Positions 39,688-62,450 of a stretch of DNA of 64,000 nucleotides are shown here, piece after piece. Origin of the DNA: Theristus sp. LFF4_11 (lineage: Eukaryota; Nematoda; Chromadorea; Monhysterida; Xyalidae); contig JASANC010005750.1 in NCBI GenBank assembly GCA_030248135.1, positions 50,716-114,715 on the forward strand, read 5' to 3'. The notes under the pieces are model-generated. The model was not told where the DNA came from and searched no databases. It was given only the letters and a program-made list of their open reading frames with translations. Position 1 is the first letter of the stretch. The number at the start of each line of letters is the position of its first letter. The position numbers and the translations under genes were made by a program.

Positions 39688-42600
39688 TCACTGTTGACGA
39701 CCGGGAAAAAAGTAAAACTTCTTGCGAAGCCTGGAGCTCGGCTCAGGTATTTGTTTGAAACCACCGGAAGAACTTGAGAACGCCTCCGCCACTTGCCGGT
39801 TCACCTAAATTGAACAAAAAAGTATATTTTCTTCAAACAAACACGATCTAATTATTGGTTGACTAGTTCAGAATCACATGGCCACGCCGAAACACAGCCA
39901 ATCAAAGAGCTTCCACAAATCATTTCCACAATGATCGGATGCGAAATATCCTTGTCACCCGAACACCCCAACCAAGGACCACGCACCATGGTCATCATCA
40001 TCACAACACCCAAGGACCACGCACCATAATCGTCATCACAACAACACCCAAGGACCACGCACCATAAACGTCATCATAACACCCAAGGACCACGCACCAT
40101 GGTCATCATCATTAACAACACCCAAGGACCACGCACCATGGTCATCATCATCAACAACAGCCAAGGTCAACGCACCATGGTCATCATGTCGAGCAGATGT
40201 TCAAAGTGCGCGTGCCGCCGGAAAACATCGACGATCGATTGAATGAACCAGGAGCCACGCGCCGAGTTGCGCCACGAGACGAAGCCGGGCGTGGTCGCGT
40301 AGCCGATGAAGATGTCCGCGTCCACTGGGATCTTGCGCTTCAGCTGCAATGAAACAGTTTTTCGACTATGACTTAAACCTGTCCCACTGAAATGACGTCA
40401 TGTGCCGCCAAACATGCGCTTGCCGTTCACTGCAAAGTGCAAACCAGACTTTCCGTTTAGCCGATTTCTTCCTGCAAACAAATGATGAATATCGAATCAG
40501 CCACACCAAACTGACATTTTAGTGCCTGTAATTTGACAAACGGGCGTTTTTAAAGCAAATGACGTCATTTTAGTCGGGACACGTTTGAATAAATCCACAA
40601 TACTAAAGGGAGATTTAGCAATTACCGTTTTTTTTGTGCGTACGCACGGACACGACACTTAAAAATGACCACGCGTTTTAGAAATCGTGTCGTGTGTGCT
40701 ATCTTAATGCATTCAATACATACACGATTGTTTACGCATGGGATTTAGAACAACGTCTGTGCGCGCGGACAATAAAACTAAATGTTGTTTTCGCCTTAAT
40801 GCGTTACTATTTGTGCTGCAACTTTACGATTCACTACTAAAGCGCCATTCATGGAGGATGAAGCACGCTGAAGCGCGTCACTTTGCCACACATTCACGAA
40901 GCAAAAAAACAGCGCGCTTTAGTTTTGGAACATACGCACATTCATACGCACGTTCATGTTAGCGCACGTCAGCGCGCGTCAACGCGTTGAGTCACATTGA
41001 GTTCCACCGCTTCACAACGATCTGACCGTCTATTCTCGCTTTAATTTTGCGACTCAAAGTCACAGAAGAAGACATTCTCAGTCACAAACGGTTTTTTTTA
41101 TTCCAACGAAATCCTATCCCATTCATCCTTTGATTCAAAGTTTCGTGTGCTCGCTATTCTGCAAACGAATCAAACAGAGGTTTGAAGAAACTTTACACAG
41201 TGAACAGTTTTTCTGTTGAAACAAACACGCATGAATTACATGCGAAAAGCACAATACAGTCTTCTCAAAGCCATTCAACCGCACTTTGTTGCGTGGATTA
41301 CGCTTAGACTGACGGCATTTTCAAATGTCATCGAACTAACATTTTTACAGTCGCCGCGTCGAACAAAATTTATTGAGTTTCGTAAATGAAGATAATGAAA
41401 GTTTTAGAGCAGCAGAAGGCTATTCTGTATGCTCATGCTGGCTTAAACTAGTCGCTCACCGAATTATTAAGAAATCTCCTACGTATGAAATCAAATTTGA
41501 GTTTCGCAACGCAACTCGGTAAAAAACAGGTATGTCTGACGACCGCACTTTTGAGGCAGTCATAAAAATAATCCCGATTTTCCAAATTCGCAGAGCCCAG
41601 CGCAGAAGTCATTGATTGACTGACGAGACAGCAACGATCAAGTTTACACACAAAAATAACGTGCCCTTTTTAAAAGACTTATTGTCCGAGAAAGCTAACT
41701 GTGACGGTGAAACCAAAATACAGAGTGGTCCAAAAGTAGTGGGTACAACTTTGAATCGCTCTAACTCGCCAACGGTGAGACCACTTGAGCTGAAATTTTA
41801 GTCGCTTACTTAAGAATCACAAACTTAGACCTCCACCAATTTTTAGCCCAAACAAGAAAATTTTGCCCCTGTGCGGAAGCAAAATTCGAAAAAACGAATT
41901 TTTGCATGAAAATTTTTTTGTCTCACATCGGATTTATTCATCGATTCGATAACGTCACAAATTCAAAAACGCGTCGCAAAAAACTGTCAAAAATCAAAGC
42001 TAATCCTTCTCGTAATGTGAGCCGCAAGCTTCAATGCACAATCGGCCCCCATGGCCACTGACAAGATCACTTTCTGGCACAATTCAGTGTCCAAGTGCTA
42101 AAACGCGTTCACAATCATTTCCTTCATCGATTCCACGGTTTTCGGCTTTTGAGGGCAATTGAGGAGTGGAAACAAAAATCTTCGCAATTGTGTAAGCGGG
42201 GAATTGAAACCAGATTGTATTGCCTTTTTTCACGTTGGATCGATGAATAAATCCGATGTGAGCCAGAAAAAAATGCTGTTTTTCATGCAAAAAATCGTTT
42301 TTTTTCGAACTTTGCTTCCGCACAGGGGCAATGTTCTTTCGTTTGGGCTAAAAAATGGTGAAGGTCTAAGTTTGAGCTTCCTAAGCGACTAAAAATTCAG
42401 GTCAAACGGTCTAAGCGTTGGCGAGATGGAGCAATACAAAGTTGTACCCACTACTTTTGGACCACTCCGGTGGGTGAAAAGAACACAGCTGTTGTAGACA
42501 ATAACCGAGCGTCCGATACGATGACGTCGAATGCGACAGCCAATGACAACTCGACGCAATCAACGTCGCCCTGGCTGATCACCACATTTGTGTCAGCGTT

Positions 42601-45600
42601 CGCAGTCAGTAGTGTGCTGGCTATTTTCAACAACACATTGATCATCATTGCTGTCGTCAAGTAATCACCGTTACTTTTGTGTTACGCATGCCTCTCATAT
42701 GAGTACCTCCGGTCTGCAAGGGAACTTGTCAGACACAATGCCACCAATCACAGACATAGATCGTGTTGTAGCGTACTCGTTTTGGCTGCAGTTTTTAGTG
42801 TTTTTACTGCCTTTTGTGTTTCTTTGTCAGGAGCGAAAGCCGACGCCGCACGGCCGGTCTGCCAATGTTCGCAGTGTTGGCCGCATTCGACCTCTGCATC
42901 GGCGTCGGCAACTTTGCCGAGATCACCACGAAGCTACGTGCGCACTACCAAGTGCCAATCAGCGGCCGCTCGTGCATTTTCGAATTCTCGCTGGTGCTCT
43001 TCGGCATTTTCGGTGGGGCGACATTCGATTGAAGTATCCAGATTACCATCGAATCAAACGCCAAATGCCACAACTGTTGTGACTTTTTGATTTTAGTAAA
43101 CGTCTTTTGCCACATGTACATACATACCACTATTTTTGTTGACTTATTTAGTCTGTATTCGTTGACGTACAGTCCATCTAGTCTGGATTAACTAATTGGG
43201 TGATTGCACACACGTGCAGTAGTTGACGCATGATGCGTTCTGTGCACGAAAAGTTCGCCTCCACAGCAATGTTTGCACATATGCATGCATCAGCCTGCAC
43301 ATATGCATGCATCAGCTTGCACAGAATTTACGCATGAAAGCTGCGCGTGTGTGCAACCAACTAATCAGCTAGGTGTATATATCAGCCAGATGGACTGCGC
43401 GATGTGTTTGACGTGGCCGAGCGATTTTGTTTGCACCAGCTGGTACGCAGGCTCGAACATGTTCATGGTGTGCGTGTTGTGCGATCGCTTGATGGCCGTT
43501 CAGCAGCCGATGGCCTACCGCGTGCGCGACCACCAGCGGGCGGCGATCGCGCGCGGTCTGGCGGTGTGTGCGGTCGCGTTGTTTAGTGTGCTCGCCAGCA
43601 CGCTCAGTGCGCGTTGGTCGACGACAATGCACTACTGCAGTCTACCGAGCTACTTCAGCGGCGCTTTCAAGTGGTACGTGCGTGCGATGCTGTTCGTCGG
43701 CGTCGCCACCGTGATCGCACTACGACTGCAGCTGCTGCGCGCGTTTCGCAAGGTTTGCTACCGAGAATGATTTTTCAGTCTGTTTGCTAGAATCTGTCAG
43801 TCGATCAGCAGTGATGACGTCCTCCTGCATATATGGAGAGCCCTTCGTAAGACACGTTCGAACAAACTGACTTTCGACATCACAGTTGTTTTTAAACGCG
43901 AACTACACTGTATGTACAACGTTAATCTTTACCAAAAACAGGCTGACACGCGTAAACGAGAAATGTGCAGTGGAGCAGAAAAGGCCGGTCAATACGATGT
44001 AAGAATTCGCCTGTATTTTTGTCACAAGATTTCGCAATATTAGCCCGATTTCATTCCACTGCAGAGTCGCTTAACCACAGTGACGCTGTGGTCACTGACC
44101 ATGTATGCGATCTGTTGGATTTGTCCGATGTTCATCGTTTTGCTCGCCGTCCAATTTCAGGTGACACGTCAAGGCCACACACGAAAATCATACCTTGGCC
44201 TAAGTTTTGTTTTATTCATCTGACTTGTGATCTTTCGCAGACACGATATCGGCAATATTGGGTTTACATTTAGGCTTCGGAAGTCTGTGTTGCAGCGCGA
44301 ATACAAATCAAGTCGCGCTGAGCAAAATGACGAAATTGACAAATGAGACTTTTGCAAACTAGGGAACCCTAAAGCTGATAGGGTAAAGGTAAATGACATG
44401 GTCACTACGGCGGTTTCTATTAACAGCGCACATCAAGGGTGGTCATTTACCAAAAACCCGTTACGAATCGGTAAGGAGCGTACGAGACCGAAAGTGGTAG
44501 CCGATTACCATCCAATTGAGAGAAATCATCACAACCGCCACTTGTTACTCTTGCTTCCCAACTTGCTCAAAAACAAGAACGCAGCACACCAATCGCCGAA
44601 ATGGCGCACAGGCGCGAGCGAGCACGCTGATGCTGCTCGGCGGACTAGTGGGGCTCGGTCAGAACGGGAACGCCGCTGTCGGCCTGCCGATCTACGCGTA
44701 CAAGTCGCCGATGCTGCGACAGAGTCTACGAGACGTGTGGCGTTGCAGTGGCCGGCGACAACCGGAGAACGGCGCTCCTCGGAAAGTGCTCGACGACCGG
44801 CTTCACACGGCGTCGGCAAGCGTCGATCGAGCTGTTCGACCGAAGAAACGATCAACATCGATCGACGCGAGCGCTGCGCGCGGCCGAACGACATTGGCGG
44901 CCGTGGGGGTGGCGCGAAAGACGTCTCGAAGTATGTCGTTGATGCCGGTGACCGGCGTCAACAAAACGATCCTCGTACAGTCATCGTCCACCTATAACAG
45001 CATCGTTCAGGTGCACCCGGCAGGTGACGACTTAGAGACCATTCTTTGATTGCTATCATCAGTTTTTTTGAGTATCTGCAACTCAACACGTTTACAGACG
45101 TAGAAAGGAAACCAGTCTCAATGTTTTTGTGGCAATTCAAAATAGCCCAAGTGACCCGGCCCTAAGGGACGCGGATCAATTTTCCATTTTTGAATTGCTG
45201 CGTCATGCGTGAAACTGTTTACCCGCGCATTGAGTCTCGCGACCAAAATGAAAGATCATACAGTGCACTGTGTCGTGCAATTGTTGTTGTTGCCCTTTGT
45301 ACTATCGCAATGGTGACTCCATCGATTTACATATGATAAATTGTGTGTTATTACAGTTTTGTATGCTCTACACATCGATTCGCTGCTGAATTCATTCAAT
45401 GAAACTGTTATGTTACTTCAAAATCACATTGTTTTTCGGCGACTCAATGAAGATGTGTAGTGCACATTGTTATTCACTTCAGTCTTTGAATGACGAAAAA
45501 GTGAAGTGCTGTTTGATTCTGACCGTAGGCAATTTGACTGCGAAACACGGCTATACAACATCGCAATCGCATTTTTTAGAAGTGTTTGTAAGACATGAGC

Positions 45601-48600
45601 GTCATCACAATCAACCAACATAACCGCAGCTTTCTCATTGGGTTTCTTCACTTCAACAAAGTTTCGCTTCTGACACATCTTTCCAAAAGTCGCTGTTTGC
45701 GTCGGTGTCAATTTGTTGATTTCCGTTGACAAACACAAGAATGTCTATGGGTTCTCTTTCGGTCAGACTCTGACGTATAGATACTACGAATCCGGAAAAA
45801 TCAGGTTTTACGTCATTGCAACGTTGTCTGACGGGACTTGTTGCAACTATCCAGTTTGATTGCACGTTGAGAAAACCTTGTGCATGTTCAGTTATCGCCT
45901 CGTACCTTTCAGCACAATTGTCTAAATCGTGTTTTTAATCATTATGAAAAAGGCAATGGAAGAGCGTTGAAAAAGGTGATGGATTTGCAAAAGGTTTTAT
46001 AATATGAGAAAAAAAACAAAACCACAACCAAAACAGGCTGTTTTTCGATTTTCAATTGGCTGAACAATCGGCTTGAAGAGGTTTTCAATCTGAGAAGAAA
46101 TACATTGGCTTCGGCACTTTGGAAGTAATGCAGATCGTTTCAATTCAGCACACACCACAATCATCGAGAAAGCGCCCCGCCCCCCGCAAGCATATATTAT
46201 CTTTTCGTGCGATGAAGGCGGACTAATGCTGAATGTGTGGAAAAGCCGCACAGCTGAAAAGCTGTTTCGCGACCGAATGTCGTTCGAATACGAAATAAAA
46301 TAAATTTATTTACAGTCAATCTCGCTAATAGCTGATTGGTTGGTCGTAGCAACTCTCAGCGCTGATTGGTTAATCATGAAGTGTTCTCAGCGCTGATTGG
46401 TTGGTCATCACGTCATGTTCGCGTCATGTTGCATATAATTTTCAGTTGGACTGTAGTGAGAAAAGATTCTGATTGGTTTTCCCCAATTTCTTGCGCAAAT
46501 CTGCCGTCAGAATACGTTTTTAAGTTTTGCTGATTTTAAATTGCCGTGCAGCCACGAAACATTTTCTCTATCTGCGCGTGCAAACGCATATTGGGACACG
46601 TTTAATAAGAGCGATAATACCTCGGCTACATCAGCCTCGTCGTCGGCCCAGTTGCGCGCGAGCATCACTTGCAGTCGCCTCACTGCGTCCACCGTAGACT
46701 GCGCGCACGAATCAGCTGCGTTCACCGGCGAACTTGGCGGGGGCGCGTCGAGCAGCTTCGCCTCAGCCGCCGTCCTCCAGTCGCAGTCGATCTGGCAGGT
46801 CGGCGCATCCGAGTAGTCGCCATGGCCACGGTCGAAGTCTTCTGCACACATCGGAAACACGGTTTCCTTAATTGTTTTAGCGTATTCATTACTAGCGGGG
46901 GTTTTGGAAACAAATATTATGACATTATTGTAAAATGGTCGATCTGACATACGTTGGCAACCTGATTACAGTATGCTTGTTCAAAACCTATCACTTTTTG
47001 CGTAAATACAGAGCCCATCAGAGAAGAAAGAACGGGACGGAATCGGGAGTGGCGCATACGCATATCTGGGAGTAACGAGAAAACGTATATCCACAAATTG
47101 GGTGTTTGATCGGAATCCGGGTATACACTCGTTCTTCTATCTGCAATTCAATGTTTCGAAACTAAATCTTCAAAATTAAATAACCATTCAATCGCGCATT
47201 CAATCACACTCGATCACGTACATGAAGCCACGGTCACATCCTGTGCATAGCCAATCACAATTTCACTTGTTTCACAATCACGCAGCAAACAAAAATGACT
47301 GTCCACAAAGTACACCGTTCACTTTCAGCAAACCTCTCGCAAACCTAAAGCCACCCACTTCCTCTGCACGCCTGCAGGAAGAACAGTTTCGGTTTGTCGC
47401 GCATCGCCGGACAGCGCTCTGCGTTCAACACCGACACAAAGTCGTTCACCTCGATTGTTTGATCGTCCGACCCGTACAATTGGCCGTGCTCGCCTGAGCG
47501 TCATTGAAAAGTGTTTTTTTTTCTTGTGTTTTTCAAAAAAAAACCAAGAAAAAATGTATGCGAAAACAGAAAACAGTGGCACACCGTGAGTCAACACGAC
47601 GATGACCACAGACTGTGCCCGCTCAAGCTCCGGCTTCAGCGACAGACGCCCCATTGCAGCGATCATTTCCTGACGTTCAGATTGAATTTCAGTGCAAAAG
47701 AGATTTTCGAGTTTTTCATGCAAGGCCGATTTTGTTTCTAGTAGAGAAATCAACAGGTTGCGTTTTAACAACACTATTCAACCAATACAATCCAGTTGCT
47801 GATTTTAGCTAAAATACTCAAATTTGACACTCTCTTTGGCTCATTCATTGGATATGTAGCAGAGAGAGACCCCCTTCACACTGCAGACAGGCTAGAATCG
47901 TTAGTCGCACGCTGATTGGTCGTAGCACCGTTAGCAGCCAATCAGTGCCTTAAATACAACGTCGGCGCACCCTTGCACTCAGGTCGTGTTTCAGTTTTGT
48001 GGCGTAACCGAGCTCCTTCAACAGCCTCAGCATGTTCGCCGCATCGACGTCGGTGCCCTGGCGCATCGGAAGCGCACGGAATTTGCGATTGTTGAAAATG
48101 TAAGCGAGACCTTTCGGTTCGGCGAAATTCGCGTATTGCTGGCATGAGTGGAACGTGATATACTGTTTGTTGCTTTGTGTGGTTTTAAGATCTGAGAAGA
48201 TGCTGATGTCTGACGAATTGTGATTGATTGGATCTGACCGGATTTGGAGATCAGAAAAAAACCAAGCTTGGAAAGCGCTTGTGTTGCCGCGGAACTGCTT
48301 TTCCGGTCTTTTTTTATTACCTCATCCAATCCAATTCAAATGCTCCCAGTCAGTTCAGTTTAGCGATACTCTCCAAAGGAACTTGACCATCAGAAATAAT
48401 ACGAGAACAAATTGCTGGAAACATCATCGCAGCGTTGCGTCGTCTTAAAAAATCTAAAATCCATGACGCCAACTCAATTGATTTTACCATGACAGGATCA
48501 AAGACAGGCATTCGATCCGCATTGGCAGCATCCGGCTGCTCGATGCGCAAATCGGCGAGATACCCGTTCGGCAGTGGCACTGGAAAAGTCGACAACCACG

Positions 48601-49932
48601 AACCGTTTCACTTTTATTTTTTATAAACAAACAAAAAATTTTCGAATGGAAAATTTAAAACAAAACCCGCACACAATACCTTTTCCAACAAACCGTTTCA
48701 ATTTTATTTTTACAAACGAACAAAAATTTCGAATGGAAAATTCAACAAGCCCGCACACCATACCTTTTTCGAGCACCTCATCTGTGACGTAGGAGGGCAG
48801 CACGTCCTTGTAAAACTCGCTCGCCCGCGCGATCTCCTCATACGACGGCGGCGGGCGATTGTCGAATTCGCGCAGTGGAATCACACTCGAGCCTGCGGTC
48901 TTGTCGTGGTCTGTCGGTCTGAAAAGACGTCAGTTTTTTTCTGATATCAACTCCAACATGCCACTGTTTCGGTGAAATGTCATCACGTTTCCCGTGCAAA
49001 AAAAATTGCCGTCCAAGTCGGCTGATCCTCGTTCGGGGAATTTATGATGATACGGGAAAGTTATCACGTGACACCGGTCTGCTGAAAAACATTCAGATTT
49101 GCTGTTTCAATATCATCTAATGCACTGATTTCGACAAAGCGCAGGTCGTTCAATCCAACAACAACAACAACAACAATGCACCGCAAAATTCGCGCCGGCT
49201 CGCCGATGCCGTGACCGTTTTTAATGAGCTCCTTTTCGTTGTCGAGTCCCGGCAGCAACAACTCTGCCAGGTGCGTCTGACGCGACTGCACCAGTGCATT
49301 GTAAAAGTGGGTGAACGCGTTCGGACCGCGGCGTTTTAGCAGCTGAATCAGTTCTTGGGCACGTTTGGAGCGGGGGGCCTGCGGATGAGTGAAAAAAGAG
49401 AAATAAATGGCAAAGTGTTGGTGTGACCGAGTGGTTTACACAACGGTCACTGGGGGTTGGGAGTAAATCAGTGCTAGCATACAGTCCGTCTGGCAATGTA
49501 TGCAACTAGCTGATTGGTTTGCCATAGCAATTCTCTGTGCTGATTGGTTGGTCATCAAGTCATGTTGCATATATTTTACAGATGGACGTAGGTCCGAATC
49601 ATCTAGGGGACATGCAAATTACGGTGTGATATCAAAGCGGTGCGCGTTTTGAATGGTGTGTGCTGATTGGCTGCGTCGGTTGTGGTGGCGTGTAATGTAA
49701 CCAATCAGCAATTCAGTTTTCAATTGTATGCAGTTAGTACTGTTCAACAGTGAAATTGACTGAAAAGAGAAAGAACAATGCCCAGACGCACCCTGCCATC
49801 TGCAAGTGTCTCAAAATGGTGATCAAGAATGACTTCAGTGGAAACAAGATACGCGAGCACGTCAGCGACCTCCAGTTGCTCACTGAACTCCACCAAGTGA
49901 GCCGTGAGCAAATTTCGATGTCGTTCCTCCAT
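39688..49932 (-). CDS. ced-3-like initiator caspase, apparently intact
   Basis: Ten exons in transcript order: 49792-49932, about 49182-49378, 48764-48918, 48488-48579, 47971-48138, 47585-47669, 47359-47493, 46621-46841, 40176-40343, 39688-39804. All joins are in phase, giving about 492 codons, close to CED-3 (503). Exons 1-2 are a CARD (MEERHRNLLTAHLVEF; LLKRRGPNAFTHFYNAL). Exons 5-7 are the large subunit with catalytic His (VVLTHG), substrate-pocket Arg (MRQGTDVDAANM) and catalytic Cys in QACRG. Exon 8 is the interdomain linker. Exons 9-10 are the small subunit with VSWRNSARGSWFIQ and FYFFPG. It would cleave after Asp in the cytosol in apoptosis, after CARD-mediated activation. The second exon's donor was chosen to fit the phase. 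The intron before exon 9 is 6.3 kb and holds a receptor gene on the other strand. Confidence 0.93.
39983..40178 (-). repeat. 35-39 bp minisatellite that repeats a splice donor
   Basis: Six copies of GCACCAT spaced 38, 38, 35, 39 and 39 bp, each followed on the plus strand by GTCATCATCATCAACAAC-like sequence. On the gene strand each unit repeats the end of the caspase p10 exon plus its donor: (A)TG|GTGCGT. The first copy is the real exon border at 40176. The array lies in the intron between the two p10 exons. Confidence 0.85.
41721..42469. mobile_element. mariner-like non-autonomous element with about 240-bp TIRs
   Basis: Left end CAGAGTGGTCCAAAAGTAG preceded by TA; right end CTACTTTTGGACCACTC. 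The inverted repeats extend about 240 bp, including TCGGATTTATTCATCGAT and its complement. About 750 bp, no transposase. The right end is 52 bp upstream of the receptor ATG at 42521. The right-hand TA is not preserved. Confidence 0.8.
42521..45049 (+). CDS. seven-transmembrane G protein-coupled receptor, nested in the caspase intron
   Basis: Six exons: 42521-42660, 42831-43012, 43451-43752, 43942-43998, 44065-44160, about 44585-45049; phases fit, giving about 413 codons. The N-terminus (MTSNATANDNSTQS) has N-glycosylation sites. TM1 is SAFAVSSVLAIFNNTLIIIA; TM2 MFAVLAAFDLCIGVGNF; TM3 starts after SC and ends in CDRLMAVQQP, the DRY position; TM4 and TM5 are in exon 3; TM6 is YAICWICPMFIVLLAV; TM7 is LMLLGGLVGLGQNGNAAVGL followed by PIYAYKSPMLRQSL in the NPxxY position. 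The long Ser/Arg-rich tail could hold phosphorylation sites. The short variable loops resemble nematode rhodopsin-type receptors, but the ligand is unknown. The acceptor of the last exon is uncertain (44585 or 44612). Confidence 0.85.
46320..46460 (+). repeat. dispersed ATTGGTTGGTC repeat (CCAAT motifs)
   Basis: Three GCTGATTGGTT motifs within 90 bp, followed by CATCACGTCATGTT and GCATATAATTTT. A close relative is at 49498-49590, and looser ones at 34245-34345, 47905-47950, 49660-49720 and 51210-51340. These share CCAATCAGC with the 42-bp array at 51.5-52.7 kb. Confidence 0.65.
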
Positions 49933-51526
49933 TTTTTCGTTTATCCAACTGAAATGCTGACGGAAACAAAACCATTAGGAACTACTGGTTTTAAAAATTG
50001 TGATTTTTGTGATCGGTTTTAACAATTCCGAAGAAAATTTGGCGTTTATTGCATCTATTAAAGGGCTTTTAATCACTTGTACATCCTATCCGTGCACTAA
50101 AATTAAAATTTCTATAAAACGCTGCAGCCTGGATATGACGTCCATGGCAGCTAAAGGACTATAGGATAATAAATTTGTTGCAATTTCACCTGATTGATGC
50201 GTGAATGTGTTTCTTGTTTGAAACAGAATCCTAAAATTTATAGATCGTAATTTTTGGCTGCCTGGCACCGCAAATCTGTTTGTCTTTTTGTGCTCTGTTG
50301 TGGATCCTTTGTGGAACTAAAACCATCAGAGGTAAAAGTGAAATATAAAAAGGGCATTGCATGGCACGAGAGACACAGAACACTGGTCTGGAGCAATCCA
50401 ATACCTTCACATGAAGCAACCTCAAATCACTCCAAATTTTATTTAAACATCGGCAAATATGACACAATTATTGATAAAATCAAAAAAAGGCTGTATTCAA
50501 GTTGACCATGTCATGGTAAAAAAACATTCTTGCCAAAGTGAGTTGGCACCTGCAGACAACAACTGTAGAACTGACGAAAAATACCAGTAAAATCAGAAAA
50601 AATAAATGCACGAGTGCTGAAAACATCAACAAATAAAGCAACTTAGAAATCAATGTATCAAAAAAATCCAGAATTAAAACTCAAATCCACAGTTTACTAT
50701 GATGCACCGGGTGACTTGACACATAACAGGGTAAAAAAAGGTCAAACGATAAAACGGACCAGAAAAGCAACCATAATTATACGGGTAAGGCAAACTGTCG
50801 AACGAAAAATGAAGAAACAAAAATGGAGCACAAGGTTGTATTAAAAGTGACTGGTAAAACGCAACTTTCAAAGAAAATTAGAACTAGGAAAAAAGCAGCA
50901 TTTCATAACAACACACATCGGTGTCGTCGTCGTGTTCCACCCTTCTCAGTCAAAGTTTCCTTTGTTTCTTCTTTCTCATTGTCACTATCATTATTATTCA
51001 AACTGACATTCGATTCCATCTGAACCCGTCTGATATTCGGATAAAAGCGGCCAGGAAAGAAGTAAAATTTGCGTCGCAGTCTACTGGTCGGCCGCGGCAT
51101 CACCCTGATCTCGTCTCGCTCACTCACACGCTGGTTTACCTGCACAGTGAGAAAAAACTTTGCAACGGATTTGTTTTCCAAGTCAGATTCGATCAGCTAC
51201 ATAACGATAGCTCAACGTTCCACCAACCAATCAGAGTGACGAATGCATGTCAACCAATAAGCGGACTGTACGGAAGTGTGGTGTGCAGTTGGAGATACAC
51301 AACTTTGGAAGTCAGTGCAACCAATCAGCATAGAGAGGGTGACATAGAAAACCACGAGCCGGTACATTGCTAGTTGTTCATATTGGGATCCGGGTAGTGC
51401 ACAGGCGCCTCTCCATTCATACACGCGTCGGTTCGCTTCAAACATCACTCACATGCCAGCTTAGTCCGCACTACTAACGTAATCAAAAAAACCCGAATGA
51501 CCACATCACCCTGGTACCAGCCAACC

Positions 51527-52702
51527 AATCAGCACAGCCGCAGACAACCAGTTCAACTGTATCCAACCAATCAGCACAGCAGCAGACAACCAGTTCAACT
51601 GTATTCAACCAATCAGCACAGCAGCAGACAACCAGTTCAACTGTATCCAACCAATCAGCACAGCAGCAGACAACCAGTTCAACTGTATCCAACCAATCAG
51701 CACAGCAGCAGACAACCAGTTCAACTGTATCTAACCAATCAGCACAGCAACAGACAACCAGTTCAACTGTATTCAACCAATCAGCACAGCAGCAGACAAC
51801 CAGTTCAACTGTATCCAACCAATCAGCACAGCAACAGACAACCAGTTCAACTGTATCCAACCAATCAGCACAGCAGCAGACAACCAGTTCAACTGTATTC
51901 AACCAATCAGCACAGCAGCAGACAACCAGTTCAACTGTATCCAACCAATCAGCACAGCAGCAGACAACCAGTTCAACTGTATCCAACCAATCAGCACAGC
52001 AGCAGACAACCAGTTCAACTGTATCCAACCAATCAGCACAGCAGCAGACAACCAGTTCAACTGTATCCAACCAATCAGCACAGCAGCAGACAACCAGTTC
52101 AACTGTATCCAACCAATCAGCACAGCAGCAGACAACCAGTTCAACTGTATCCAACCAATCAGCACAGCAGCAGACAACCAGTTCAACTGTATCCAACCAA
52201 TCAGCACAGCAGCAGACAACCAGTTCAACTGTATCCAACCAATCAGCACAGCAGCAGACAACCAGTTCAACTGTATCCAACCAATCAGCACAGCAGCAGA
52301 CAACCAGTTCAACTGTATCCAACCAATCAGCACAGCAGCAGACAACCAGTTCAACTGTATCCAACCAATCAGCACAGCAGCAGACAACCAGTTCAACTGT
52401 ATCCAACCAATCAGCACAGCAGCAGACAACCAGTTCAACTGTATCCAACCAATCAGCACAGCAGCAGACAACCAGTTCAACTGTATCCAACCAATCAGCA
52501 CAGCAGCAGACAACCAGTTCAACTGTATCCAACCAATCAGCACAGCAGCAGACAACCAGTTCAACTGTATCCAACCAATCAGCACAGCAGCAGACAACCA
52601 GTTCAACTGTATCCAACCAATCAGCACAGCAGCAGACAACCAGTTCAACTGTATCCAACCAATCAGCACAGCAGCAAACATCCAGTTCAACTGTAGCCAA
52701 CC
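51527..52702 (-). repeat. 42-bp tandem array, about 28 copies, CCAAT box in each
   Basis: About 28 near-identical 42-bp units, each with CAACCAATCAGCACAGCAG followed by CAGACAACCAGTTCAACTG. Because 42 is divisible by 3, three long false frames run through it on both strands. The CCAATCAG core fits the NF-Y consensus; CAGTTCAACTG is an 11-bp palindrome. On the caspase strand each unit reads CTGATTGGTTGGATACAG, resembling branch point plus acceptor. It lies in the intron between the p10 exons of the second caspase, 38 bp after the donor. Confidence 0.92.
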
Positions 52703-53029
52703 AATCAGCTGACTGCGAACGTGTGTGCCACAACAGTCACCTTTGTCATCAAATCCCACAACTGGTCGGAATGTGCATGATGACCAAACACGTCGACCAA
52801 CGCGTGAACGTAGGCGGAGCCGGCGGCCGATGCTGATTGGTGAGCGCTGACGCACGCGTAGCCAATGAACACGTCGGCCGCTAACGGCACCAAAGTGTCG
52901 TCCCAGGCCTGCAACGCGCGTTGCGGCTGCGAGTCTTACGAATTGCGATTTGTGGAGACGAACAAAGCAACACTGATCTGCATGTTGTTTAGGCGATGTT
53001 TTTGGTGTACAGAACGCCGTCGAGTAAGG

Positions 53030-53130
53030 CGTCCATCGAGTTTTCTCTGTCATTAACTGCCCATACACCCCTCGGCGGGGCTCGATTCCCGAACGCACAA
53101 TCGAGTCTAGCGCGCTGCCACCCAGGCCAC
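53030..53130 (-). ncRNA. possible tRNA-derived SINE fragment
   Basis: On the minus strand, CCTCG...CGAGG can pair as an acceptor-like stem; TGGCCTGGGTGG resembles an A box and GGAATCGAGCCCC a diverged B box. The anticodon arm is not regular. In an intron of the second caspase. Weak call. Confidence 0.3.
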
Positions 53131-53943
53131 GAGGCGGTGACATTGATTTGACATTACCACCAGTTTTTCTTTGATGAAATCAACAAACTGCTGAACTGTT
53201 TTTTGAAGAAAACCACAACCATATTCTTCCTGAAAAATTTACTCCAATAAACAAAATCTCACCATTCGTTCGTCCGATTTTGGCCTCACTGAGATGCCGT
53301 TGGTGTGAGCGGAGTCTGTGCGGAGAAAAAACCGAGAGTTGGCTTGGGTGTCTTACAAAGTGACTATTATCTTTTGTTTTGGACCTGAGACTCGATGCGC
53401 GCATAGATAGGTAAACAGTTTCATGCATGACGCGGGAATTGAAAAACTCGCAATTTGAACCGAGTCCCTCGGCTATTGAACACAATCAGTCAGTTTGTCA
53501 AATTGGCGCGTCAGCAAACAAAACGTTTTTGCATCAGACCATTGTTGAGAATTTGCAGAGGGTGCACCAAGACCAACTGTAACCACACTGAAAAGGATTG
53601 AAAACAAGCGCGAACCTGGGCAGCTAGTTTGCAGAATGAATAACTTTGGTTTGTTCGCCAGCGCAGAGCACCGATCCGGGTACAAGGCTGAGATCCACGT
53701 CTCCACTGCGAGTTCGTTTCCATCGGTGCCGATTAAAAACGCCGGACTGCCGTGCGTCAGCACTGCGACAATCGCGGAGTCTGCCTGCGTGTGTTCGCGG
53801 CGCTGCGCAAAGTCGCACAGCGCGGCGCGCATTTGCTGGAAATTGGGATAAGGTTAAATAGTTTGGCCTGCCTACTCATGGCTTACACTTCTCTGGTATT
53901 ACGCCGTGCACTGCAGAATAAAACTGACTGACTGACCGACCGA

Positions 53944-54401
53944 ATACCGTATTACCTCTAATAAACCCCCATGGGGGTTTATTTCTTCAGCGACTTCTGG
54001 GGGTGGGGGTTTATTTTTGGGGGGGGGGCTTTATTTTTGGGGGGGGGGTTATTTGGAAACCATTTTTAGGGGTGGGCAAAATGGCAAAAATACCTTCCAT
54101 GGCAAGAAGGAAGTCGCAGAAACTTCTACTTTTCACAGAGATTTCCTTTTGTAACAGCCTTTTGTAATGAAATAACCACTAACTCATCCCTTTGGGGCCT
54201 TTGGTAGCACAATTTCATCATTTTCACTGCAACCAGCCACTGAATTCGCTGGGTATGTGTTTCAAACAGGTTTCCAATAATCCCCCATGGGGGATTATTT
54301 TGGGGGGGGGGATTATTTGGAAACTTGTCGAGGGGGTGGGGGTTTATTTTTTGGGGGGGGGGGTTTAATTTTGGGGGGGGTTTAATAGAGGTAATACGGT
54401 A
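53944..54401. mobile_element. ACCGTATTACC-family element in a caspase intron
   Basis: A 458-bp element with ends ATACCGTATTACC and GGTAATACGGTA, CCCCCATGGGGG next to the left end and G runs in the right half. Its core matches 36835-37283. Located between the 54666-54845 and 53616-53835 exons. Confidence 0.75.
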
Positions 54402-55032
54402 GTTCCGTTAATTCCGTTCAATTTTTCGGCTGTGGACGGTTCTTGACGGTTCGACAAATCGAGAAATAAATTGAGCTTGCACTTGCACAATACTGTAATT
54501 GGCTACATCACGTGGAAACGAGTCGTTTTAAAACGGAAAAGAAACGGTTTTTTCATGGCAATATAAAAAACCGGTTTTCTTACCAACCCTAGAAACGACC
54601 AATTCAGACTGTATCCAACACTGTACTGATTAAAGATATTCAAAAAATTTAAAAAAAACCCTCACATTTGCTGTGAGATTCTTCTTCGTCGGCAAAACGC
54701 TATAACCGAGTGCTGTGAACAACTTGCGGAGGTTTTTCGCATCCACGCTCGCGCCTGAAAGGTTCGCCAGTTTCGACGTGGAGTGGAAAGAATCGTTCGA
54801 TATTATGAGCGCACAGCCTTTGGGTGTTGAGAAGTTTGGATAGTGCTGAAAAGAATGTGGTTACGAATTGTGAATTGAATTCGAGTCACTGCGTTGAAAC
54901 GAAAAAAAACTTTAGTGCGTGCAAATAATCAGGGCATGGGATCTGGATATTCTGGACAACTAAAAATGAATTAAAAAGTTACGATTTGCACGAGAAAATC
55001 GCCAGCAAATTGCAAACTCAAAACAAGACATA

Positions 55033-55833
55033 TAAAACCAATATCTAAAAATGCGGGAGACGCATATAAAAGGAGGAATATGGCTTTGTGTAAGCAGTGA
55101 GAGACTTGGCTCGACAACTCTTTTCAAGTCTCTGATGTGGTACACACGGACACAAGTACATAAAAGCTATATTTTTGCGCCGCGTTTGTTTTACTGAAAA
55201 GTTTAAAACAGTTTTAAAATTATTTTTCACTGTCCTTTCCAGTTTAGTTCGAAATCACATCATGTGCGAAATTCTGTGCAAATTCTGTGCAGAACTTCTG
55301 TAAATCAACAATCTGTAAATTCTGTGCAAAAACAGAAAAATCAGAGACTGCAAAACATTGTTTCATGTGGTTTTATCGTTGCTAACGTACGCATCGCTGT
55401 GTACACACCAGCACCAGTGACAAAAAGGTGTTGTCTTCCGTTGATTTTCAGCCTTTTTACCAAACTCAAGTGGCAAAACTGTCTGTCCCGTGAGTCGTTG
55501 CCTTTGCCACAGAAGGAGACCTGGCGTTCCCTAATGCCTCTGCGATACACTTTGTTCTGGGCAAACCAGTATCAGCGATCTGAAGTCTGATCGTTATTTT
55601 AGTGGTTTTAGTGGTCGCTAAATGCCCGAAATACCGCAAATGTTTAAGTTTTAATTGTCTACAAAGTACATGTGCAACCGAAATAGTGAATAAACGGCGC
55701 AAAAATATGGCTTTTATGTACTTGTATCCGTGTGTACCACATCAGAGACTTGAAAAGAGTTGTCGAGCCAAGTCTCTCACTGCTTACACAAAGCCATATT
55801 CCTCCTTTTATATGCGTCTCCCGCATTTTTAGA
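55033..55833. mobile_element. 0.8-kb foldback element with TATCTAAAAATGCGGGAG ends
   Basis: Left arm (55037 to about 55190) and right arm (about 55690-55833) are inverted copies, including CTCCTTTTATATGCG and GAGACTTGGCTCGACAACTC. The interior (55250-55600) is a shortened reverse complement of 30740-31270. No transposase frame. Confidence 0.75.
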
Positions 55834-55944
55834 TAATATTCTGACTTTTAAATAAGTCCCGAAGGTCGAACCAAATTCACATCTCGTTGGTCACACATTC
55901 TTCTAAACCCCGGATACCTCAGGGTTTTCATTTTTCGTTTTTTG

Positions 55945-57555
55945 GGCCGATTTCGCCTATGCTATTTCTACGGCCGATTTGCCCGACATCGTCACGATTC
56001 AGTATCTAGAATTGCTCACATAAGAAAACTGACCCAAAAGCCGTGATCGGCGCAATGAATTACCATGGACAACACAGTTTTTTGTATTTGGACCGATTTC
56101 GCTAATTTCCACGGCGGTTCGCCCGAAATCGTCACGATTCAGTATCTAGAGTTGCTCACATAAAAAACTAACCCAAAATCCGTGATCAGCGCATTGAATT
56201 ACCCTGGGAAACACACTTTTCTTGTTTTTCGTTTTGGGACCGATTTCGCCAACTTCCACGGCCGATTCGCCCGAAATCGTCACGATTCAGTATCTAGAGT
56301 TGCTCACATAAGAAACTAACCCAAAATCCGGGATCAGTGCATTGAATTACCCTGAAAAACACCCTTTTCTGGTTTTTCGTTTCTGGACCGATTTCGCCAA
56401 TTTCCACGGCCGATTCGCCCGAAATTGTCACGATTTTGTATCTAGAGTTGTTCACATAAGAAACCTAACCGAAAATCCGTGATCAGCGCATTGAATTACC
56501 CTGGATAACACCATTTTCTTGTTTTACGTTCCTGGACCGATTTCGCCAATTTCCACGGCCGATTCGCTCGAAATCGTTACGATTCAGCATCTAGAGTTGC
56601 TCACGTAAGAAAACTAACCCAAATTTCGTGATCAGCGCATTGAATTACCCTGGAAAACACCCTTTTCTTGTTTTTCGTTCCTGGACCGATTTCGCCAACT
56701 TCCACGGCCGATTCGCCCAAAATCGTCACGATTCAGCATCTAGAGTTGCTCACGTAAGAAAACTAACCCAAAATTCGTGATCAGCGCATTGAATTACCCT
56801 GGAAAACACCCTTTTCTTCTTTTTCGTTTCTGGACCGATTTCGCCAACTTCCACGGCCGATTCGCCCGAAATCGTCACGATTCAGTATCTAGAGTTGCTC
56901 ACATAAAAAACTAACCCAAAATCCGGGATCAGTGCATTGAATTACTCTGGAAAACACCCTTTTCTTGTGGGATTTTTTTTGCTTCTGGACCGATTTCGCC
57001 AACTTCCACGGCCGATTCGCCCGAAATCGTCACTATTCAGCATCTAGAGTTGCTCACATAAGAAAACTAACCCAAAATTCGTGATCAGCGCATTGAATTA
57101 CCCTGGAAAACAACCTTTTCTTGTTTTTCGTTTCTGGACCGATTTCGCCAACTTCCACGGCCGATTCGCCCGAAATCGTCACGATTCAGCATCTAGAGTT
57201 GCTCACGTAAGAAAACTAACCCAAAATTCGTGATCAGCGCATTGAATTACCCTGGAAAATACCCTTTTCTTGTTTTTCGTTCCTGGACCGATTTCGCCAA
57301 CTTCCACGGCCGATTCGCCCGAAATCGTCACGATTCAGCATCTAGAGTTGCTCACGTAAAAAAACTAACCCAAAATTCGTGATCAGCGCATTGAATTACC
57401 CTGGAAAACACTCTTTTCTTGTTTTTCGTTCCTGGACCGATTTCGCCGATTTCCACGGCCGATTCGCCCGATATCGTCACGATTCAGCATCTAGAGTTGC
57501 TCACGTAAGAAAACTAACCCAAAATCCGTGATCAGCGCATTGAATTCCTACGGAC
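55945..57555 (+). repeat. 147-149 bp tandem array, about 11 copies
   Basis: About 11 units marked by GGACCGATTTCGCC and CACGGCCGATTCGCCCG, starting at 56090, 56237, 56385 and so on, spacing 147-148 bp in the units I measured. Later units are more alike than the first two or three. The unit contains GATCAGCGCATTGAATTACC. It fills most of the intron between the 58251-58339 and 54666-54845 caspase exons. Confidence 0.9.
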
Positions 57556-58079
57556 TAAACATTTCTCCTATTTTTCGTAGCTCAGACAAAATTTGTAAGA
57601 GTGAAAAACTGATACCCAGTCAAAATGCTACCAACTTTAAAAAACGCACAATTTTGACCCCAAAAAATGCCCGGGCAAAAAAATAAACTAAATTTTCAGA
57701 ATCTACGGATGAAATTACCCTAGGAAACAATTTTGTTCAACTGTGAAAGTGTCCCAGCTAAAAGTTGAAAGGGCGAACACTTAAAACCAGGTAAAAACCC
57801 TCCCACCAATTAAAAATGCCCAATTTTTTACCCAAAAACAGGGTCTGGGTAAAAAATTAACCCAATTTTCAAAATCTCCGGGTGGAATTACCCCAGGGAA
57901 CATTTTTGTTCGACTGCGAAAGTGTCGCAGGTAAAAATTGAAAGGGCGAACACATGTTGATTACATACCAGAAAAAAAAATACCAAGGAAAATAAGTAAC
58001 ATCAATTTCAGAATAGGTTTTTCGTGTCTACAGCGTATGAAAAGTAGTCGGATAAAATTTTTTTCGCGGCTCCAAGCAC

Positions 58080-58250
58080 AACTTTGGGTGTTCGTTTCGT
58101 GTGCACGGAACCAAGTTTGTGGCTTATACTATGCTCGCTGGAGGCAGCGAGCAATTTTGAAAAAAGCGCGCTGGGGTATAACGGCTCATATTATGCGTGA
58201 TGCGCTCTCCGCTCGCTGCGCTCGCTCGCGCATCCGCATGATAAACTCAC
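58080..58250 (+). repeat. inverted fragment of the 30.6-kb dispersed element next to a caspase exon
   Basis: TTGTGGCTTATACTATGCTCG to GCTCGCTCGCGCATCCGCATG is the reverse complement of about 30600-30740. Its end directly abuts the splice donor of the 58251-58339 caspase exon. Confidence 0.65.
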
Positions 58251-58387
58251 ATCAATAACATTGTAAGCCTCTATTGGATAACTGTCTGGAGCTTCGAAAG
58301 TTATTTCGACGTTTTCGAGAACGCCAGTAAGCAATGGCACTGAAAAAACTAACAAATCGGCGTGCGTTCGATTGCGGCCCATTAGAT

Positions 58388-58650
58388 AGCGGCCGAAGCA
58401 TTGCGGCCGAAGCATTGCGGCCTGAAGGATTGCGGCCTGAAGGATTGCGGCCTAGGACGATTGCGGCCTGAAGGATTGCGGCCTGGACGATTGCGGCCTG
58501 AAGGATTGCGGCCTGGGACGATTGCGGCCTGGGACGATTGCGACCTGGGACGATTGCGGCCCGGGACGATTGCGGCCCGGGACGATTGCGGCCCGGGACG
58601 ATTGCGGCCTGGGACGATTGCGGCCCACGAAATTTTAAAGCGGTGTCATT
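58388..58650 (-). repeat. 16-17 bp ATTGCGGCC tandem array (left arm)
   Basis: About 15 copies of a short unit, GATTGCGGCCTGGGAC or variants. An array of the reverse-complement unit lies at 59950-60196. The inner borders of both arrays match (GTGGGCCGCAATCGTCC preceded by a related AAAA-rich stretch), so they are inverted copies. Confidence 0.8.
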
Positions 58651-59000
58651 GTCTTTGTCGCACGCAACTGGTTATGTTATTCTCGCACACGAGTTTTCAA
58701 TTCTTTTTTTCAAACAAAGTTGTTTTTTTGTTTATTGATTAGTAATTATGTTTTTTTAGAACCCCAAATCGAAATCTTCCATGCTCAACTTTCCTTGTCG
58801 CCGGGCAGAGCTATATTTCATCTGAGCCTTTTTTGTTTAATTTGTTATTAAAGTTTTAAACTACCAATTAATTATTTAAAATTAAACCAACAAAAAATTC
58901 CCGTTAAAAATCAAAACTGTACTTTCTTATAAACTTATCTAGCTAGATATCTGAAAAATTTCTTTTGTCTCGAGTTGGGTCCTCAGGCAGAGACCCCACC
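58651..59000. other. AT-rich intron sequence
   Basis: AT-rich sequence between the repeat array and the hAT-like element; no exon or repeat recognised. Confidence 0.4.
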
Positions 59001-59647
59001 TTGGGTTGTTGAAAAAAAAACAAAAATCGTCATTTATTTATTGAAAAAAATTCAGAAATTAAAGTTGTGCTAAATTAACCAGGGAGTTCGAAGAACCACA
59101 TTTGATGTGCAAGCGCCTCCCGAATGATTCCCGAAAACTTTCCAGATTTTGTTTGGGTAACTTCATTTACCCCTTTTCCAAACCGTTACCATGCCTCTTG
59201 TGTTTTGACCCCCAAAACGTCACTAATTGTCCCCAGCTCAAGTGAAAACACACATACCGGGTTGAAATTCTGATGATGGCGCGACGACAGGACACGAAAC
59301 AGCAACCAGACAACGTGGCGCTGGCAAACGGAGCAGCTCGGACGCTCAGAAATCAGATTGGAAAGCGAATTGTCACCTTATCTGCATCGGAAATGGTAGC
59401 CAAGCTGTGGAACGCTCAAAAACTTCATCGCCGAAGTTGTCGAAGCCTAAAATCAGTCGGTTAAACGGTCCAAAATCGACTACTGACGGTTTTACGAGGC
59501 AATATCAAAGAAAATTTTTGTTGAACTTTTGAAAAAATTGTGCCAAAATTAAGGTTTTCAGAGCATATTAGAGGGAAAATTCTTGAATTTTTTTAATAGG
59601 CATTTTTTAATCACATAAAAAATTTCGATTTTTGTTTAACAACCTTA
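59001..59647. mobile_element. hAT-like element, second full copy with near-exact TSD
   Basis: A 647-bp relative of 17299-18009 with ends TTGGGTTGTT and AACAACCTTA. Flanks ACCCCACC (58993-59000) and ACCCCACA (59648-59655) agree at seven of eight positions, as expected for an older hAT insertion. It sits in an intron of the second caspase gene. Confidence 0.82.
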
Positions 59648-59949
59648 ACCCCACACCCAGCATTTGTTTCAAATCAAACCTCCAGAATCTTGGATTTTCA
59701 AACATAAGGATTCAAACAACAACAATTCATTTCAATTCAATTCAATTTCTATTCAATTCAATTTTTTTATTGCTAACAGCGGCGCAAATATTGGCGCAAA
59801 TATCAACGATCGATTCGACGCAAACGCAGCAGACACGACGACGACGATGGTTTAAACCATTGCTGTTCCAGAGCAGGGGTGTTGGGCGGGGGGGGGCGAT
59901 ATAGATGGCTGGAGCAAATTTTCTAGATAGATAGAAATTGACCTGGAAA

Positions 59950-60196
59950 GGTGACAAAGCATAAAAACTTTGTGGGCCGCAATCGTCCCAGGCCGAAATC
60001 GTCCCGGGCCGCAATCGTCTCAGGCCGCAATCGTCCCGGGCCGCTATCGTCCCAGGCCGCTATCGTCCCAGGCCGCTATCGTCCGGGCCGCTATCGTCCA
60101 GGCCGCTATGCTTCGGCCGCAATCGTCCAGGCCGCAATCCTTCAGGCCGCTACGCTTCGGCCGCAATCGTCCAGGCCGCAATCTCTTGGGCCGCAA
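59950..60196 (+). repeat. 16-17 bp GGCCGCAATCGTCC tandem array (right arm)
   Basis: About 14 copies of GGGCCGCAATCGTCCC and variants, opposite in orientation to the 58388-58650 array. The two could pair as a 1.8-kb stem-loop with the hAT-like element in the loop. Confidence 0.8.
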
Positions 60197-61315
60197 AAGT
60201 ACATTTGCCAACAAATCAAAACAATCAAGCACAGAAACTTCTTTGTCAAAAGGGCAGACAAAATCAGCAGATTGACTGCACAGCACCGTCAACCAAGCAA
60301 AACTTGAACTTAATATTTTGAATTTGACGACACTGATTCCATTTGTCGCAACTTTCCAACAAAAGTTGTTCATTCCAAACCTTGAGCTTCACGATGAGCA
60401 AGTGGTTCTGTCGGCGGAAAATTTGCAGGAGTGATCGAATTCGAAGGCTGAGCGGACGCAATCGGCATCGGTTCGATACTGGAAGCTGAAATGTGACGTG
60501 CCCCCGGAACGGGCGTCATTGCGCTCTGGTGATCGTGTTCAATTCGATCGTCCAGGGGGATGCACGGCGCCAACAACGCCGCTAAATGCGCCTGTTTCGT
60601 CGCGTGTTACGCACGATAGAACTCAAGGTACGAGGTGTGCCCGCGGCGTTTCAGCATCGGCAGCAGCAGCTCGGCCTGGCGACGACGCGTGATGTTCTGG
60701 AATGTTCAGATGCGATGTTGCGGCTACGCTGCGCTAGGCGTTTTTGGTGAAAAAACTCAGGTGTATATATATATCCACCTGGCTGCAAAATTCTAGGTGT
60801 GCGAGCAAATTTTTAGGTGTACGGTGTAAATTTTTGGGTTCACCTGCATAAGGTTTTCAGCAATCGTTTCTTAGCAGAATCGGTTCGAGAACTAGCAGAA
60901 AAGAAACAATTCGCACATTGAGCTCCACGGCCGAACTGTAAATCATTGGCAATCGGCTGATTGGTTGCTGGAGAATTGGGCTCACTGATTCGTCCAACCG
61001 GTGTGATGCAGCCGCAATCAACGTGTCAGGATAGAATGTGCAAATTGCGTGTTTTACAGTTAATAGACACATCACATAGTAACCGCCATAATGCGCAACT
61101 TGCTGCTTCGGCATTTTAGATACAATTGGATTCACTGATTCTGAGACATGCGTCATGTACGCCAGTTTGGGCCCCACCTGCACAGTGAGCTGTTCCACCT
61201 GGACATCGGTCAGCACGTTGCTCGCTGCCAAGTGCGCAATGAGCAAGTCGGGCTCGAGATTGTCAAGCAGCGTGGGCAGATGCCGCGTCAGGACCAGCTG
61301 CTGCTCGGGCTGCAT

Positions 61316-62450
61316 TGTTCGCCGACGCTGAAAAAAACCGTTTCTCTGTCTTGTTCAAAATGCTTCCGAAATGAGTTTTCCGGCGCTAAATAAAGGCCAA
61401 TTCATGCACGACGCATGTATATCCGGCACGCTATGTATGAATGCGTGTCAGCACGTGTTCTAAAGATAATTTGACGAGCCGGATTGCTGTTTTTGCATCA
61501 TGAATGAAGACGTGACGTGACGTGCCGTAAAAATTTGTGCATGAATTGACCTTGAACCTTTCTTCTGTTTTGTTCAAAATGGAATTCAAAGCATTCGACG
61601 AGATTTTCGAAATGACTTTTAGAAAGCTAGTTACACGGCACGCTTTGGGCAAACTTGATTGGTGCAAAACTCCCAAAGTGGGATAATGAACCCAATCAGA
61701 GAACTGCATTGAAAAAAATTTGCAATAACATGTGCATAAAATAAGTTTTTGCAACTGATTTGAACAGTTTAGAAAAAATACAAACTACACGACTGACGAT
61801 TTTCACCCAGTTTTTATTCAGAGTATCGGAAATTTGATTTCACGTTGTCACTGAGTTACATACTTTGCACAACAAGTTGGCTTAGAATCTGTGAAAAAAC
61901 GCGATTCAGACAATACTGCACACATTGGAGTAAAAGCACAAAATAGAATCAAGTGATGAATGAACAAAGTTGTTCAGACTTTAACAAAATCTGTAAAACA
62001 GCACAAAAAGTGGATTTCCAAATGATCAAACAAACAATTCTACCTTTCATGTTTGAGCAATGTCGCGTTCATTTTACCTAATCCCTTGTAAAAGGAGTAT
62101 AATCTGTCCGACACATAGTATAACTTCATCAGTTCAGTTGCTATTGGTTCGAAACTTGAATATTTAGTAATGCAACTATGCAACGCAGTTTGCTCTCAAA
62201 TCACATTTGATGCAACTATGCAAAGAAGTTTGCTCTCAAATCACGAAATTTGACGCTTTTTTTAATGCGCGGACGTTCCACTGACAGATTGATTGAAAAA
62301 ACATTTTTACAGAAAACCAGAATAACGATCAAAAATCACAATGGAATGTAGAACCCGCGCCACCATGGCAAAAAAAGAATAAATACAACGAGAAAACAAC
62401 CATCCGTTCCGATCAGCCACTGCAATCACAATTGTATTCCAACCCTCCAA
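61316..62450. other. upstream region of the second caspase, nothing recognised
   Basis: No exon, RNA gene or known repeat could be supported. TGCAACTATGCAA(C/A)G(C/A)AGTTTGCTC occurs twice (62172-62240) as a short direct repeat. Confidence 0.4.

Follow-up and report, generated by a model that had tools for sequence, protein, structure and literature searches.

Two tandem caspase genes of the CED-3 type

The stretch of DNA analysed here, below called the window, comprises 64,000 nucleotides of contig JASANC010005750.1 (positions 50,716 to 114,715, forward strand) from the nematode Theristus sp. LFF4_11, whose genome assembly (GCA_030248135.1) spans 159 Mb in 3744 contigs. Two caspase genes of the CED-3 type lie in tandem on its minus strand, gene A (49932-39688) and, upstream of it, gene B (61315-50903). 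About 970 bases separate the stop codon of B from the ATG of A, so that a copy with a dead active site adjoins its active partner on the same strand. An earlier, sequence-only reading of the window had proposed this tandem pair, and both genes could be modelled. Its further claim that both can be assembled from phase-compatible exons holds for gene A and fails for gene B, which is interrupted by an in-frame TAA and has no single open frame (Table 1).

Gene A has the features of an active CED-3

The spliced model of gene A runs through 10 exons from the ATG to the stop codon and encodes 486 amino acids without an inner stop; all nine introns are of the GT-AG type and in phase. As stated in the sequence-only reading for the downstream copy, the protein contains a CARD and the motifs LTHG, QACRG and SWRNSARGSWF (SWRN), and Pfam matches exceed the cut-offs for both CARD (E 6.5e-12) and Peptidase_C14 (E 1.4e-58). 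The catalytic residues H273 and C316 are kept, together with Q314 and the S1 arginines R215 and R417. For the interdomain linker, positions 47140-46953 were also considered as an exon and dropped in favour of the exon 8 given in Table 1, which lands in phase and aligns weakly with a nematode linker.

The version of gene A lacking exon 8 matched 53 proteins, which served as the set of relatives. The closest is a CED-3-like protein of Plectus sambesii (A0A914W2P5; 43% identity over 77% of the query), the next matches of named source are mostly nematode caspases, and echinoderm, cnidarian and marsupial proteins follow further down. The best relative with a solved structure is 'Cell death protein 3' (8jol, 4m9r). 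By every sequence criterion tested gene A looks active, and it is the CED-3 orthologue of this genome.

Exon structure of gene B

The exons found for gene B have intact splice sites. Compared with gene A, four exon ends have the same phase; p20a, p20bc and p10 end exactly at the residue aligned with the exon end of A, and the first CARD exon (CARD1) ends within one residue of it. The p20-to-p10 junction allows two splice forms. The last exon, 51139-50903 overall, was absent from the earlier reading. When the exons were joined for Pfam, with X at the stop codon and the linkers omitted, Peptidase_C14 was matched over its complete profile (1-233 of 233) with E 6.5e-42 and 144 bits against a cut-off of 21.4, and CARD with E 3.5e-7. 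Chance is thus excluded as a source of the homology of B to CARD caspases.

Beyond the last strand, which ends in FFPGR, the frame of B continues for 47 codons to RRRHRCVLL and a stop. In gene A and the 14 relatives compared, the protein stops only a few residues from this strand, except for one marsupial protein among them whose end is different. The third-position G+C of the tail is 0.35, and 17% of random starts in the window run as long. We take the tail to be the result of a lost stop codon. The final CVLL after RRRHR resembles a prenylation signal, a CaaX pattern that is found at 10 of 3600 frame ends in the window. It would be conceivable that B is a CARD-less protein tethered to the membrane by this polybasic, prenylation-like end, with its dead p20/p10 unit pairing with CED-3 by the last strand and holding the zymogen away from its activator. 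Prenylation was demoted as the leading explanation because the composition of the tail is non-coding and such a motif arises by chance, and we regard this scenario as improbable.

A stop codon interrupts the CARD of gene B

The TAA lies within the second CARD exon (CARD2). The sequence is CARD-like on both sides of it and aligns with gene A and the relatives, where the column of the stop is occupied by Leu in A and in 40 of the 42 aligned relatives (Phe in the other two; the remaining 11 of the 53 are gapped). With the stop included, 18 of 44 residues of CARD2 are identical to A. Due to this codon gene B, as assembled, cannot encode a full-length CARD-bearing protein, and no open frame joins the recruitment domain with the dead caspase domain. 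A mini-intron of ~23 bases over the TAA, read by eye, was rejected, since it is too short and breaks the phase. The end of CARD1 and the start of p20a are both in phase 0; hence, skipping of the broken CARD2 exon would preserve the frame.

A second contig (C2561:1-3120) overlaps the end of the contig that holds the window (window positions 60848-64000). It aligns over 1669 bases with no mismatch and 2 gaps, followed by 13 mismatches and 7 gaps in 1462 bases, and represents an unmerged contig end or a second haplotype. As it ends ~240 bases short of the TAA, it gives no check for a second allele at the stop codon.

If the TAA were due to faulty sequencing or assembly, or belonged to a rare allele, B would be an intact, CARD-bearing dead paralogue and might act as a dominant competitor for a CED-4-type activator and A. 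The CARD-like sequence of CARD2 across the stop would fit this explanation, as would the position of the locus 3.4 kb from the contig end, near which the second contig differs. However, the two contigs show no mismatch in the 1669 bases nearest to CARD2, which is why the base quality there seems good, and no second copy of the B p20/p10 exons was found. An error or rare allele is therefore considered unlikely.

Table 1. Exons and related features of genes A and B (positions in the window)
Feature	Position	Strand	Remark
A exon 1, CARD first half	49792..49932	-	ATG at 49932, donor gtgcgt
A exon 2, CARD second half	49216..49378	-	PF00619 above cut-off
A exon 3, linker	48764..48910	-	
A exon 4, linker	48488..48579	-	
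A exon 5, p20 start, S1 Arg215	47971..48162	-	
A exon 6, p20, terminal LTHG (catalytic His273)	47585..47669	-	
A exon 7, p20, terminal QACRG (catalytic Cys316)	47359..47493	-	
A exon 8, interdomain linker (KDFDRGHGDYSDAP...)	46621..46841	-	open, phase 1 to 0; weak tblastn match to a Loa loa protein, E 0.15
A exon 9, p10, SWRNSARGSWF (S1 Arg417)	40176..40343	-	
A exon 10, C-terminal strand SRLRKKFYFFPGRQQ, stop	39688..39804	-	
B exon 1, CARD first half (CARD1)	61178..61315	-	phase as in A, end within one residue
B CARD second half (CARD2)	60538..60696, possibly on to ~60419	-	carries the in-frame TAA
In-frame TAA in B CARD2, codon 30	60607..60609	-	
B p20a exon, S1 Arg column = Leu	54666..54845	-	
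B p20bc exon, LTHG and LQTSCP, Cys column = Ser	53616..53835	-	without the intron that A has inside LTHG
B p10 exon, without Trp-Arg of SWRN	52741..52908	-	alternative start 26 bases upstream (52934)
B last exon, core VNQRV...SRLRRKFYFFPGR, C-terminal strand kept	51047..51139	-	
B C-terminal extension, 47 codons and stop, ends RRRHRCVLL	50903..51046	-	non-coding-like composition

Active site and substrate loops of gene B

In agreement with the sequence-only reading, B retains the signatures of the caspase fold, reads QTSCPG at the active site (the exon itself ends in LQTSCP) and is missing Trp-Arg from the SWR motif. The visible cysteine of QTSC lies one column past the catalytic position. As the number of residues counted back from the shared phase-1 splice site is equal in A and B, the column of the catalytic cysteine, Cys in all 53 relatives, holds Ser in B; QTSCPG as a one-residue insertion with the catalytic Cys kept was rejected on the grounds of the same equal exon length.

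The substrate-binding residues are changed as well; their subsite names follow caspase-3 structures. The S1 arginine of loop 1 (R215 of A) is replaced by Leu, while Arg is found in all relatives that reach this column (50 of 53, with three gaps). The S1 arginine of loop 3, present in 53 of 53 relatives, is deleted together with the S2 tryptophan, and the columns of the S4 asparagine and the S4 tryptophan are both Ala. Loops 3 and 4 are shortened, the latter by five residues. In loop 3, B is identical to A at 5 of 15 positions, compared to 13 and 15 of 17 in the Plectus and Trichuris proteins; in loop 4 the corresponding values are 1 of 9 for B, 10 of 14 for Plectus and 4 of 12 for Trichuris. 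Losses of this kind occur in none of the 53 relatives, and the active site of the Plectus sambesii protein is intact. With its catalytic cysteine and both S1 arginines gone, B does not qualify as an active caspase and belongs with the CED-3 paralogues without a working active site, such as CSP-2 and CSP-3.

B keeps the active-site His, Gly and Gln, of which His and Gln are invariant among the 53 relatives. These residues might allow B to cut with a new specificity, the nucleophile being either the Ser that replaces the catalytic Cys or the Cys one column later. Against such an activity speak the substrate-binding losses in S1 (both arginines), S2 (tryptophan) and S4 (asparagine and tryptophan), the shortening of loops 3 and 4, and a comparison of crystal sequences: CED-3 in 4m9r has Ser at the same position, which we take to be the usual dead mutant, while 8jol has Cys. 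That B still cuts is thus very improbable.

Origin and age of the duplication

A maximum-likelihood tree of 26 rows (A, B and 24 of the 53 relatives) places B as sister of A, with a support of 96/94, inside the nematode part. The branch of B is considerably longer than that of A (2.4 and 0.55 changes per column, respectively). The tree program marks the branch of B as long and its composition as unusual, so the position of B has to be treated with caution. Taken at face value, the tree would date the duplication after the split from Plectus and Trichuris, yet make it old. A and B are 38% identical, a level at which we expect synonymous sites to be saturated. The nonsense codon alone looks late. 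The long branch and the old duplication are at odds with the suggestion of the earlier reading that B could be a pseudogene caught early.

A caspase profile search of the genome, in which all six candidates were scored, returned exons of A and of B and a third caspase-fold locus on another contig (C2251:50569-50733, 27.9 bits). By eye, this locus looks like a paracaspase (MALT1-like) rather than like CED-3.

Selection or decay of gene B

The p20/p10/last-exon core of B (660 bases, 220 codons) contains no stop codon and no frameshift, and differs from A in length by in-frame gaps only. In all exons found, one stop and no frameshift occur in ~319 codons. Neutral evolution of 222 codons of A was simulated in 200 runs per identity level. 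The mean number of stops was 4.2 for sequences 60% identical to the ancestor and 5.7 for those 45% identical. Runs free of stops numbered 7 of 200 at 70%, and no more than 2 of 200 at 60% or below. The third-position G+C of the B p20 and p10 exons and the core of the last exon is 0.60-0.71, that of A is 0.70, and the overall G+C of five introns is 0.41-0.47.

To a considerable extent the changes in B are concentrated in the active site. Of 50 columns conserved to at least 90%, B differs in 18, in one of which A has the same letter as B. The differences fall on 11 of 14 active-site columns and on 7 of the remaining 36 (Fisher p 0.0002), and a stricter count with linked losses merged or dropped gives 7 of 10 versus 8 of 37 (p 0.007). 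In the C-terminal strand, 13 of 16 residues are identical to A, compared to 78 of 193 in the other compared segments of the caspase domain (p 0.003). The last strand of caspases forms the dimer interface. Pure decay should alter conserved columns alike; the surplus of active-site changes therefore indicates a phase in which the fold was retained and catalysis was not. The pattern suggests that B is a pseudo-caspase long selected for its fold and not for cutting.

Several observations weigh against this interpretation. If only the six catalytic and S1 columns are counted, the changes (3 of 6 versus 15 of 44) are not significantly enriched (p 0.65), and the active-site set was taken from caspase-3 structure and chosen after B had been seen. 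The columns that keep the consensus in B relative to A are spread about evenly over the conservation classes (32/43, 25/31, 24/33, 8/14 and 4/6), in a count that does not separate active-site columns. The C-terminal strand is conserved in general (14 of 16 identical residues between A and Trichuris, 11 of 16 between A and Plectus). At 80% identity to the ancestor, a level that may also apply to B, 28 of 200 neutral runs were free of stops; open frames would also be expected had B been an enzyme until late. The stop codon in the CARD has to be added, and no counterparts were found in B of the two linker exons between CARD and p20 of A or of its interdomain-linker exon. Finally, an orthologue of B was not found in a search sensitive only to relatives sharing five-residue words; the one weak match among 4832 candidates has an intact QACRG.

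It is possible, if less probable than a regulatory past, that B is a plain pseudogene, i.e. a redundant copy of CED-3 whose active site was lost and which has been decaying without ever being regulatory. The stop codon, the four-fold rate, the linker exons not found, the minisatellite and other repeats in its introns, and the non-coding-like run beyond the ends of A and the relatives shown would all be in line with such a fate. It is hard to reconcile with a single stop and no frameshift in ~319 codons at 38% identity to A, with the intact splice sites and still coding-like composition of the exons found, and with the concentration of changes in the active site. An active enzyme that died late would account for the open frames, but not for the active-site excess.

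A possible regulator of CED-3

We favour, with a probability of about 55%, that B is a pseudo-caspase resembling cFLIP or CSP-3, which is now CARD-less or was recently broken by the nonsense codon. B would have arisen from A by an old tandem duplication and lost catalysis and substrate binding, and selection would then long have maintained its caspase fold and the C-terminal strand for pairing, but not cutting. The p20/p10 unit of B likely pairs with A and alters its activation, as cFLIP does with caspase-8. The present product may be CARD-less, made from an internal start or by skipping of the broken exon, or there may be none, like in human CASP12. The gene models, the residue losses, the stop codon, the sister relation, the rate asymmetry and the site pattern are shown by the sequence, whereas expression of B, its pairing with A and the sign of its effect are inferred. 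Although the sign of the effect cannot be read from sequence, we lean towards inhibition rather than help. An exon-by-exon search of the genome for NB-ARC (CED-4) gave no match among 8 candidates, which is not decisive.

The sequence-only reading had described a dead, CARD-bearing paralogue beside an active CED-3 and compared it to cFLIP. The copy is indeed dead, as judged by the Ser at the Cys column and the lost S1 arginines, while the stop codon contradicts a CARD-bearing product. The comparison with cFLIP is favoured over simple decay by the pattern of losses, with a rebuilt active site and a retained fold and C-terminal strand, but not in every form of the test.

The recruitment domains of cFLIP are DEDs instead of a CARD, caspase-12 bears a CARD, and CSP-2 and CSP-3 of C. 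elegans are not known to be tandem CARD-bearing copies of ced-3. Like B, CSP-2 and CSP-3 are nematode CED-3 paralogues with an altered or missing active site; unlike these, B combines p20 and p10 exons with CARD exons, one of them stopped. According to PMC3591282, csp-2 and csp-3 have been reported to inhibit apoptosis, the active site of CSP-2 reads VCCRG and that of CSP-3 is missing. A further point against an inhibitory role of B is that this 2013 study could not replicate the inhibitory effect of csp-3.

The long form of cFLIP (cFLIP-L) is described in PMC11121540 as an inactive homologue adjoining the caspase-8 gene, with a caspase fold and mutated catalytic residues, that forms a heterodimer with caspase-8. 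It differs from B in being a vertebrate protein, and pairing has been reported for cFLIP-L but is a prediction for B. With regard to its stop codon, the state of B compares best with that of human CASP12: in section 9.2 of PMC11121540, a premature stop is stated for most humans, with catalysis predicted to be lost, and in mouse caspase-12 the S1 arginine (Arg341) is replaced. Caspase-12 is a mammalian inflammatory caspase with an altered SHG box, whereas B keeps LTHG. In Aedes aegypti, CASPS18 is said in PMC4840389 to have no catalytic domain of its own and to act as a decoy that enhances its active paralogue CASPS19; the two differ from B as homologues of the Drosophila caspase Decay and in that the effect is enhancement, not inhibition. 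Inactive caspase homologues from gene duplication are also noted for Diptera in PMC3141678.

Together, CSP-2/CSP-3, cFLIP, caspase-12 and CASPS18 suggest that dead caspase copies repeatedly turn into regulators. Among the matches listed in a literature search, outside of which most subscription papers fall, no title or abstract start dealt with a tandem CED-3 pseudo-caspase. Found in a deep nematode-like lineage, such a pair would serve as a natural experiment to show which part a decoy cannot do without: in B the last strand was kept, the substrate loops were rebuilt and the recruitment frame was then broken. It also carries a warning: exon signatures alone do not establish a CARD-bearing decoy.

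Further features of the locus and the genome

In both genes, pyrimidine-rich sequence with CAG at 12 and 16 bases precedes the ATG (61316-61337 and 49933-49956, minus strand), as expected of spliced-leader acceptors or acceptors in the 5' untranslated region. The 6.3 kb intron of gene A harbours, on the plus strand, a probable gene for a G-protein-coupled receptor of the Srsx/rhodopsin type (42362-45049); one of four scanned frames matches Srsx with E 9.5e-5 and 22.3 bits, below the cut-off of 24.1, and the other frames have no seven-transmembrane match.

The last intron of gene B contains a minisatellite of 42-base units (51521..52709, 28 copies, 98% matches); the repetition artificially creates long open frames in several readings. 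Between CARD2 and p20a of B lie inverted arrays of 16-base units (58414-58625 and 59975-60183), a 149-base satellite of ~10 copies (55966-57546) and a 141-base inverted repeat, 99% complementary (55042-55182 with 55695-55835).

Elsewhere in the genome, five loci on contigs C3368, C1331, C1345, C1640 and C1428 hold Bcl-2-like genes that consist of a single frame and are almost identical to one another (one of them matches PF00452 with E 1.2e-16). The loci are 98.3-99.7% identical over the whole 3.3 kb compared, two share 98% over 8.6 kb, and a match on contig C648 has a frame of the same length. The repeat also carries a frame for a 2OG-Fe(II) oxygenase (E 1.1e-7) and frames that read like an integrase, a capsid protein and an adenain-type protease, for which there is no Pfam match. 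It may be an element of the Maverick/adintovirus type that brings its own inhibitor of apoptosis.

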